Positions 1,519 to 3,092 of a DNA stretch of 10,023 bases are shown here, piece by piece. The stretch covers positions 1 to 10,023 of the forward strand of contig JAQXNP010000194.1 in assembly GCA_029098065.1 (NCBI GenBank). Reading direction: 5' to 3'. The first letter of the stretch is position 1. Each line of letters begins with the position of its first letter. A model generated the notes under the pieces. It had not been told where the DNA came from. It saw nothing but the letters and a program-made list of their open reading frames with translations, and made no database searches. Source of the DNA: Clostridiales bacterium (GTDB lineage: Bacteria > Bacillota > Clostridia > Oscillospirales > Oscillospiraceae). A program made the position numbers and the translations under genes.

Positions 1519-2391
1519 TCACAGCGTTTTTGCCTTTTCCAGCAGGAACTGCCGGAGCCACGCCCCCGTCTCCGGATGATCCAGAGCAAAGTCAATGGTG
1601 GCCTCCAGAAAGCCCTTCAGGTTTCCGGTGTCGTAGCGGCGGCCCTCAAAGTCCACCGCCACCATCTTCTCCCGGCCGCACAGGGTCTTGAGTCCGTCGG
1701 TGAGCTGGATCTCCCCGCCGTAGCCGGGGGCCTGGTTCTCCAGAATGTCAAAGATCCCCGGCCGCAGCACATACCGGCCCAGGATGGCATAGTTGGAGAA
1801 CTTCTCCGCCAGCGTAGGCTTCTCGTTCATGTCGGAGACGGAGAAGATCCGCTCCTCCAGAGGGGAGACCTTCACCGAGGAATACTTGGAGATGGCCTCA
1901 TCCGCCACCTGCTGGACGCCCACCGCCGAGGCGTCATACTTCTCGGCGGCGGCGATGAGCTGGCCGATGACCGGCCTTGAGGCCCGCATGATGTCGTCCC
2001 CCAGCAGGACCGCAAAGGGCTCGTCCCCCACGAACCGCTTGGCCCGCCAGATGGCGTGGCCCAGCCCCTTGGTCTCCTTCTGGCGGACATAGAAGACATT
2101 GGCAAGGTCGGCCGCCCGCCGGACTTCCTCCAGCTCTTTCTCCTTGCCGGAGGCCTCCAGACGGCGCTCCAGTTCGGGATAGTAGTCGAAATAGTCGTCC
2201 ATGGCCGACTTGGCCCGGTTGGTGACGATGAGGATATCCTCAATGCCGGCGGCCACCGCCTCCTCGACGATGTACTGGACCACCGGCTTGTCCACCATGG
2301 GCAGCATCTCCTTGGGCACCGTCTTGGTGGCCGGGAGCATCCGGGTCCCCAGGCCGGCGGCAGGGATGACAGCCTTGCGTACCTTCTTCAT
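1519..2391 (-). CDS. galU: UTP--glucose-1-phosphate uridylyltransferase
   Basis: GalU is a cytoplasmic enzyme that makes UDP-glucose from UTP and glucose-1-phosphate. UDP-glucose feeds envelope polysaccharides, glycolipids and galactose metabolism. The 290-residue length is normal for bacterial GalU. The nucleotidyltransferase signature is at the N-terminus: AAGLGTRMLPATKTVPKEML at 11-30, then DKPVVQYIVEEA at 34-45. Further family blocks are LLGDD at 129-133, GRYVL at 205-209, GGEIQLTD at 225-232 and YDTGNLKGFLEA at 253-264. The ATG at 2391 has AGGAGG seven bases upstream. It follows queT by 24 bases on the same strand, with no terminator between them, so the two are probably co-transcribed from the queT promoter. 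Close relatives such as glucose-1-phosphate thymidylyltransferase lack this motif combination. Confidence 0.96.
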   Translation of the reverse strand: MKKVRKAVIPAAGLGTRMLPATKTVPKEMLPMVDKPVVQYIVEEAVAAGIEDILIVTNRAKSAMDDYFDYYPELERRLEASGKEKELEEVRRAADLANVFYVRQKETKGLGHAIWRAKRFVGDEPFAVLLGDDIMRASRPVIGQLIAAAEKYDASAVGVQQVADEAISKYSSVKVSPLEERIFSVSDMNEKPTLAEKFSNYAILGRYVLRPGIFDILENQAPGYGGEIQLTDGLKTLCGREKMVAVDFEGRRYDTGNLKGFLEATIDFALDHPETGAWLRQFLLEKAKTL

Positions 2392-2415: not shown

Positions 2416-2943
2416 TCAGATGGCGGAAAGCCGTCGCTCCGGAATCATGGTGCGGAAATATCTCACACGGGGCAGAACATAGAGCAGGAGCATCCCCAGC
2501 ACATAGCAGGCCCCCAGTTCCCCCAGTCCCACGGTCAGGCCGTTGAACACCCAGGCGGCGGGGAGGGCGGCGGTAAAGCCTCCCGCCTCGGCCCAGCCGA
2601 TGGTGAAGCCCACCAGCACCGCGTTGCAGATCACCGGAGGCAGAGGGGCCATCCACCTGTTTTTTACCCGGCTGGTCCAGAGGGCGGCAATGAGTGTGGC
2701 CGCCGAGCCCACCACGATATCCAGCGGGCCGTACGGGGAGAGCAGATTGGTGATGAGACATCCCACAAATAGTCCCGGCACTGTGGCCGGGAACAGGAAG
2801 GGCAGTACGGTGAGAGCCTCGGCAAAGCGGAACTGGATGGGCCCGAAGGTGAGCCCGAAGATGTTGCCGAAATAGCTCATCACGGCGTAGAGGGCGGCCA
2901 CCATGGCCGCCAGGGTCAGATCCCGGGTGGAACATTTGCGCAT
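2416..2943 (-). CDS. queT: QueT-type ECF transporter substrate-binding (S) component, queuosine precursor uptake
   Basis: This 175-residue integral membrane protein is the substrate-specific subunit of an energy-coupling-factor transporter. The family imports queuosine precursors (preQ1/preQ0) for tRNA modification, working with shared EcfA/A'/T subunits that are not in this window. The hallmark block GPIQFRFAEALTVLPFL lies at 34-50, followed by VPGLFVGCLITNLLS at 55-69 and GPLDIVVGSAATLIAALW at 72-89. About five to six hydrophobic segments span residues 8-158. The ATG at 2943 has GGAGG ten bases upstream, and that site can be masked by an upstream strand (see the leader entry). It is the first gene of a probable queT-galU operon. 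The substrate is assigned from the family; the leader would agree if it proves to be a preQ1 riboswitch. Confidence 0.88.
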   Translation of the reverse strand: MRKCSTRDLTLAAMVAALYAVMSYFGNIFGLTFGPIQFRFAEALTVLPFLFPATVPGLFVGCLITNLLSPYGPLDIVVGSAATLIAALWTSRVKNRWMAPLPPVICNAVLVGFTIGWAEAGGFTAALPAAWVFNGLTVGLGELGACYVLGMLLLYVLPRVRYFRTMIPERRLSAI

Positions 2944-2951
2944 AAGAACAA

Positions 2952-3077
2952 GACCTCCATTTTTTGTTTAGAATATGTGCGCCCCATACAGGGCCGGAGG
3001 TCCCTTTCCCCGGGGGCATGGCGCAGCGCCCCCGGACGGCATTCTCTCCGGCCGTTGGACTGGGTGGGGAACCAGTC
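2952..3077 (-). promoter_or_regulatory. Structured queT leader, candidate translational riboswitch (possibly preQ1 class)
   Basis: The 5' leader folds by eye into three helices: P1 GACTGG/CCAGTC (3077-3072 with 3063-3058, loop TTCCCCAC), P2 GGCCGGAG/CTCCGGCC (3053-3046 with 2999-2992) and P3 CCGGGGGC/GCCCCCGG (3035-3028 with 3017-3010). The P1 loop TTCCCC can also pair with GGGGAA at 3011-3006, which would make a pseudoknot. GACCTCC (3002-2996) overlaps the 3' strand of P2 and is exactly complementary to the ribosome-binding site GGAGGTC (2958-2952). Either P2 forms or the ribosome-binding site is masked. PreQ1 riboswitches are known upstream of queT, including in this bacterial family. Membership of a named class is not established here. 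Confidence 0.65.
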
Positions 3078-3083
3078 GAGGGC

Positions 3084-3092
3084 ATTATACCA
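3084..3092 (-). promoter_or_regulatory. Extended -10 promoter of queT-galU
   Basis: On the minus strand TGGTATAAT carries a perfect -10 (TATAAT, 3089-3084) with the TG extension. The -35 at 17-base spacing, TTCCTT (3112-3107), is poor and overlaps the spoIIQ terminator. Transcription would start near 3077, at the first base of leader helix P1. Confidence 0.75.

Follow-up and report, generated by a model that had tools for sequence, protein, structure and literature searches.

Type III of the class I preQ1 riboswitches was reportedly defined in a 2014 paper, and the features used here come from later papers. As described in PMC11625349 and PMC10622847, elements of this type have UU after the 5′ strand of P1 and AC before its 3′ strand, a pyrimidine-rich loop, four to five A residues before P2, a linker whose length varies, and the Shine-Dalgarno (SD) sequence within P2. 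Type III is further marked by a loop of 9 nt with an L2 of three nucleotides. The type III leader of Escherichia coli yhhQ is reported as a structurally proven preQ1 aptamer (PDB 8fza; PMC10622847), with GGUUAAUC as its linker (PMC11625349, PMC10622847). We read the K-12 yhhQ leader as AUUGGG-UUCCCUCAC-CCCAAU-GGUUAAUC-AAAAAGG, in which the linker is identical to the published one.

The window, that is, the whole stretch of 10,023 nucleotides of Oscillospiraceae DNA that was analysed, carries queT on the minus strand (2943-2416), which encodes the queuosine-precursor ECF transporter subunit (Pfam QueT, E 3e-43). The galU gene (1519-2391, minus strand; TIGR01099 above cut-off) follows after 24 bases, the spacing already given by a first-pass annotation of this DNA, and we infer that the two genes are probably on one transcript. 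Among 49 fetched queT loci of relatives, galU is present in 34, some genomes being counted twice. The leader element spans 3077-2953 of the minus strand, directly 5′ of queT. An extended -10 promoter element, TGGTATAAT, was read from the sequence at 3092-3084 (minus strand) and stops 6 nt short of P1. Of the 90 leaders examined, 77 have a -10-like hexamer (at least 5/6 match) close to P1, and its end lies 6-7 nt 5′ of P1 in 72 of these 77. Because of this position and of the spacing kept in relatives, transcription probably starts at P1, as the annotation had proposed. A two-box promoter scan called no promoter in the leader region of the window. In the interval that separates queT from the M23 peptidase gene, a GC-rich hairpin with a T run behind it was seen by eye (3147-3104, minus strand); it is likely a terminator, and it is absent from the list made by the automated scan.

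The genome set held 15 relatives from the window's own genus, and the close named records were from Pseudoflavonifractor, Flavonifractor and Oscillibacter. We found queT in 47 of 60 relatives and in 193 of 250 genomes of the family. Leaders were read at 30 loci of the 60-relative set, at 40 of 50 loci from the search that gave the named close records, and at 80 more, which were the best-ranked ones not yet read among the queT loci of the 250 family genomes. The core described below was recognised in 18/30, 12/40 and 60/80 of these leaders, respectively. Some leaders without it have class I type I-like elements and some have nothing recognisable; L005, L045 and L015 are truncated at the end of a contig, and L008 is without a leader. 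The core table has 91 rows, including E. coli and some duplicate genomes, and its 44 unique cores are the fairer count. Automatic core finding mis-parsed several leaders, and the table was partly curated by hand (25 manual entries, ten tails corrected). P1 of L104 is mis-registered in it, which gives odd P1 pairs in the core count. L104 (core found) and L090 and L119 (core missed) belong to genus g62 and have an A-type tail, and their insertion greatly exceeds the others in length; no P1 could be placed in L090 or L119.

All core features of the window lie on the minus strand and were read from the sequence. The P1 hairpin has the stem 3077-3072/3063-3058 and the loop UUCCCCAC (3071-3064). Within this loop, CCA (3065-3067) has 2959-2957 as its partner, and these are the first three bases of UGGAGGU (2953-2959), which is the SD sequence and also provides the 3′ strand of the pseudoknot helix P2. 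The A-rich strand of loop 3, UCUAAACAAAAAA, occupies 2960-2972; AAAAAA precedes UGG in the window and a similar A run is found in relatives, and UCUAAA occurs in this strand in 34/34 leaders of the alignment called A3.

Pairing in P1 and P2 was seen across the 44 unique cores, and the fourth pair of P1 appears as U-A, U-G, C-G, A-U or G-C. For P2, the loop CC and the SD GG are invariant across 42 anchored unique cores, and the pair next to CC is A-U in 37, G-C in 2, G-U in 1 and U-A in 2. L103 and L109 were excluded from this count, since anchoring their loops would have required a look at the SD. For the loop UUCCCUCAC (E. coli, L153 and L154) the anchor was set manually, so that pairing is favoured in those rows. 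When tails were shuffled among the 36 distinct loop/tail combinations, the 36 pairs observed at this one position were never reached in 5000 tries (mean 30.5), a test that is lenient owing to the anchoring rule. Wider sets of P2 positions gave permutation p-values of 0.002-0.03. The covariation of P2 is modest: one position carries it, and further P2 positions are not convincing.

The loop has 9 nt in 61 of the 91 rows and 8 nt in 17, the commonest loop being UUUCCACAC. Its first base is U in 86/91 rows and its last base is C in 83/91; the last base is U, not C, in L044/L096, L093, L095, L115 and L137. The window has an 8-nt loop, and the register of this shorter loop is uncertain: the conserved register gives three contiguous pairs with the SD and another register gives four. 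These comparisons identify the ribosome-binding site as what the P1 loop pairs with throughout the family (CCA:UGG); the result is an H-type pseudoknot whose third loop is rich in A.

This arrangement is close to that of type III. Both have an H-type pseudoknot, a pyrimidine-rich loop, an A run before the SD, and the SD strand in P2; both lie 5′ of a queuosine-precursor transporter gene; and in most members here the loop also begins with UU and ends with AC. The window loop is UU..AC, and 29/44 unique cores begin with UU and 29/44 end with AC. However, type III is found before yhhQ in Pseudomonadota, whereas the present element precedes queT in Bacillota, and its P2 has UGG instead of AGG with a matched change in the loop (CCU:AGG to CCA:UGG). 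Most members here also have a structured insertion in loop 3, so that the window has a linker of about 98 nt against 8 nt in type III, besides its loop of 8 nt against 9 nt. The majority loop UUUCCACAC has the length of E. coli UUCCCUCAC and differs from it at two positions, one of which is the covarying P2 base. In two leaders of genus g238 (L153 and L154), the E. coli loop UUCCCUCAC and the tail AUCAAAAAGG stand before queT letter for letter. The length between P1 and the A run is variable, usually with conserved structure, and compact forms exist.

The Rfam model of preQ1-I (RF00522) gave no match in the window or in the 60 relatives. The same model is blind to the proven type III element of E. 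coli K-12 (L087, 4176-4211), even with E up to 10, and thus its silence on the window is no argument against type III. Class I types I and II, which RF00522 describes, share the H-type pseudoknot and the A-rich loop 3 with the leader, but they differ in loop sequence and length and in the lack of a model match. Loops like those of class I type I (UUCG...CCAUCC) were observed before queT in L057-L059, L063-L067, L157, L163, L164, L166, L023 and L027; the last two match RF00522 below the cut-off only.

The preQ1-II model (RF01054) matched neither the window nor any of the 60 relatives, and the control, Lactococcus lactis, was matched. This class is likewise found before queT with the SD in a pseudoknot, and according to PMC11625349 it has an extra hairpin before the SD strand, as here. 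For preQ1-III (RF02680), no match was obtained in the window or its genome, and 6 of 394 genomes of the order matched. preQ1-III also precedes queT in this order and is a large RNA with a separate arm, but its conserved sequence is different (six members compared, all of one other family). Nine weak Rfam matches round the leader (mir-671 and others, E 1 to 8.5) were taken as chance. Close to queT loci in relatives, there is a T-box match just below the cut-off (L019, 3023-3239) and a TPP match above it (L030, 428-539). A search of openly licensed papers found no description of a preQ1 riboswitch in Oscillospiraceae. The first-pass annotation, which could not confidently match the leader to a published consensus, had considered a GC-rich member or a new class possible. 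The Rfam searches for the three classes agree with the missing match, and the leader most likely has, in place of either suggestion, a core like that of type III into which a structured domain is inserted.

The insertion of the window consists of two hairpins on the minus strand. The first is a long arm in loop 3 (2992-3053) with a base stem (3053-3046/2999-2992), a conserved internal loop, which is GCCG/GGGGAAAGG in the window's clade, and an upper stem (3035-3028/3017-3010). The two stems are the helices that the first-pass annotation had named P2 and P3. The second is the hairpin H3, with the stem 2989-2985/2977-2973 and a loop containing GGCGC (2983-2979), which is the partner of GCGCC (3020-3024) in the apical loop of the arm. 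We aligned 30 arm-bearing leaders (A2), for which RNAalifold gave 25 pairs, 17 of them with at least one double change that keeps the pair; the three helices of the annotation, P1 included, were thereby upheld as covarying in related leaders. The base stem has compensatory changes, for example in 12/30 leaders at single pairs, and two pairs of H3 have double changes in 11/30 and 7/30 leaders. In A3 (34 leaders), double changes were found at 8 of 18 predicted pairs. The energy of the single-sequence fold of the window is unremarkable (z -1.43; 21/200 shuffles fold as well).

The kissing contact between the two hairpins joins GCG and two bases of the arm loop to CGC and the two bases before it in the H3 loop, and it was found in 30/30 leaders. 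With GCG and CGC used as anchors and left out of the count, 60/60 scored pairs were formed, against a mean of 53.3 with shuffled partners, and 0/20000 shuffles reached this value. Such shuffling ignores relatedness, and the dereplicated form, which has only six distinct combinations, gave 12/12 pairs against 8.5 (p 0.016). Double changes occur in L098, L102, L118, L128 and L137, from four genera; examples are GCGUC:GACGC and GCGUG:CACGC replacing GCGCC:GGCGC. H3, the kissing contact, and the pairing of the P1 loop with the SD (3067-3065:2959-2957) were absent from the first-pass annotation.

The insertion is not the same in all leaders. The long arm with a hairpin, as in the window, is found in the 30 leaders of A2; a two-hairpin insertion with invariant GUUCGUUC and GUUCUCUAAA is found in the 34 leaders of A3, which form a Flavonifractor-type clade; and 10 leaders have two simple hairpins. 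By eye, L160, L020, L178 and L182 have one hairpin. The compact L156 and the hairpin-bearing L160 share genus g47 and make a natural pair with and without the insertion.

The leader could belong to a new class of queuosine-precursor riboswitch, in which the inserted domain forms or shares the pocket and the likeness to type III is convergent. The invariant letters of the insertion in 34 leaders, together with the covarying kissing contact, exceed what a linker needs; the bases flanking the pocket change in some species; and Rfam gave no match. However, in the same family compact leaders with no insertion (L153, L154 and L156) stand before queT, and one and the same core occurs with two types of insertion whose conserved letters differ. 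We regard such a class as unlikely.

The first-pass annotation had proposed another mechanism of switching, in which the 3′ strand of the arm, GACCUCC, quits its helix and masks the SD, while TTCCCC of the P1 loop pairs with GGGGAA. All of its sequence elements are in the window where it had placed them, including GACCTCC at 3002-2996 and GGAGGTC at 2958-2952. The complementarity of these two strands is exact over 7 bp and also occurs in the minimum-energy fold, and TTCCCC:GGGGAA forms 6 bp in the window, with at least five contiguous pairs possible in 21/30 arm-bearing leaders. Neither pairing is conserved across the family. The mask has at least six contiguous pairs in 13/30 arm-bearing leaders and the exact ACCTCC is found in 8/30; the mask strand varies in step with its partner in the arm; and the arm is missing from other leaders with the same core, which keep the P1 loop. 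GGGGAA hardly varies, so that covariation cannot test its pairing with TTCCCC. As a family-wide switch this mechanism was rejected on low conservation, on the covariation of the strand with its arm partner, and on the arm-less cores, and we rate it as very improbable. The mask and TTCCCC:GGGGAA may act in the window's own clade.

To follow the element across genomes, we used a covariance model, R1, which was trained on A3 only, so that the sub-type of the window was absent from it. R1 detects the window element (2953-3077, E 1.8e-6). It matches 74 of the 250 family genomes, once each, and all 74 matches lie directly before queT; at least 25 of them are training sequences, which had been picked as lying before queT, and the remainder are independent of training. 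By eye, 72 of the 74 are just 5′ of a listed queT, and those of G511 and G531 precede Pfam QueT frames. Among 394 genomes of the order, 24 match R1: 21 of the same family, two of another family and one probable false match. Of the 21, 20 were already covered, and the remaining one (G358) was checked and has QueT; both matches in the other family precede Pfam QueT frames. The hit in G173 (E 2.2e-4) was taken as false, with a long open frame over the hit and no queT seen. A second model, R2, built from A2, matches 61 of the 250 family genomes. The family searches with R1 and R2 used stricter filters, by which weak matches were lost. Because a model without the window's sub-type finds the window, and finds its 74 family matches all before queT, the queT leader is, by this comparative evidence, a conserved structured RNA.

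Genes of the queuosine pathway bear on the ligand. QueA and TGT were found in 19 of 20 relatives; the queA of G000 is split into two pieces that lie on different contigs. For QueC, 17/20 genomes had a match, 16 of them above the 22-bit cut-off, with 32 bits as the best score and frames of 247-526 aa; these marginal matches would be other PP-loop enzymes. In the classification given in PMC6593275, QueA, QueG/H and TGT together stand for preQ1 salvage, and QueT is named a preQ1 transporter. Since QueA and TGT are present, QueC is marginal, and this gene set is read there as preQ1 salvage, preQ1 would be the natural candidate ligand. A frame 5′ of queT in L024, L026, L028, L029, L160, L162 and L167 ends in a cysteine-rich motif. 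This motif may be that of QueH, and queH-queT operons would be in keeping with preQ1 salvage. The context, namely QueT, with QueA and TGT in relatives, gives good support to a queuosine-precursor riboswitch. The first-pass annotation was right to mark a queT riboswitch candidate that known models miss, and it is its account of how the SD is controlled that did not hold.

A leader that regulates queT or galU without sensing a queuosine precursor, through a protein, another metabolite or temperature, would be consistent with galU lying close to queT in many relatives. The element, however, accompanies queT in two families, and the core of two leaders equals the preQ1 aptamer reported as structurally proven in PMC10622847. 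Regulation of this kind seems improbable.

Helices, kissing contact, gene association and promoter position are established by comparison of the sequences. On these we base the reading that the leader is probably a translation-repressing preQ1 riboswitch, with a core that works like class I type III and a structured insertion in loop 3; we infer the ligand, the pocket contacts, the direction of regulation and the role of the insertion. P1, its short pyrimidine-rich loop, the A-rich loop 3 and a second helix would form the H-type pseudoknot, in which CCA of the P1 loop would capture UGG at the start of the SD. preQ1 would sit between the two helices, where the C that precedes the 3′ strand of P1 (C3064 in the window) would read it. 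By stabilising the pseudoknot, preQ1 would hide the ribosome site, so that QueT, and perhaps GalU, would be lowered when the precursor is plentiful. The arm, H3 and the kissing contact would probably make a compact module that holds the strands of the pseudoknot close and tunes its formation.

Several results stand against this type III-like reading. The covariation of P2 is modest, and the window has a shorter loop (8 nt for 9 nt) and a much longer linker (about 98 nt for 8 nt) than type III. The final C of the loop is missing in 8/91 rows, six of which have U at or as that position and one A. The loop of the window also pairs over 6 bases with GGGGAA of the arm, against three contiguous pairs with the SD; this pairing is possibly an alternative state in the window's clade. 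The first and last bases of the loop change together in L006, L010 and L017 (G-C, A-U and G-C, respectively), and pairs of these flanking bases could close the presumed pocket. In L010 and L017, the A-to-G change in the loop is matched by U to C in the SD. Ahead of the A run, L006, L010 and L017 carry an additional hairpin, which they share with L016.

A more far-reaching suggestion is a fourth, separate preQ1 architecture, in which an SD-capturing H-type pseudoknot is fused to a second folded domain that has invariant loops and the kissing contact and that shares in sensing. The pocket may then be closed in L006, L010 and L017, with sensing moved to the insertion or lost, and species that have U for the reading C may bind a different ligand. 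We hold this suggestion as tentative and rather doubtful, and retain the type III-like core with its loop-3 insertion.

Oscillibacter-type leaders (L049, L110, L123 and L150) carry, after the strand AUGGAGG, a further SD at the gene, as well as a T run. A CCUCC strand between the two SDs can pair with either. The second SD, CCUCC and the T run are a candidate for an added expression platform. In computed folds without the P2 strand, the real SD is masked in 4/4 leaders; with the P2 strand, the alternative is clearly favoured in L123 only. The support that these predicted folds lend to a switch with interchangeable output is mixed. L030 resembles the leaders with a second SD, as does L184 by eye, and the window is without one.

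The pair of L156 and L160, together with the loops that have U for C, makes the kinetics of loop 3 and the ligand specificity directly testable. For annotation, it matters that a proven subtype escapes the Rfam preQ1 model. If the type III-like reading is true, class I type III would extend beyond Pseudomonadota, and a very small riboswitch fold would be able to carry a large, evolvable tertiary module in its loop 3. It would also explain how preQ1 uptake is controlled in many Oscillospiraceae, gut bacteria that apparently rely on imported preQ1.
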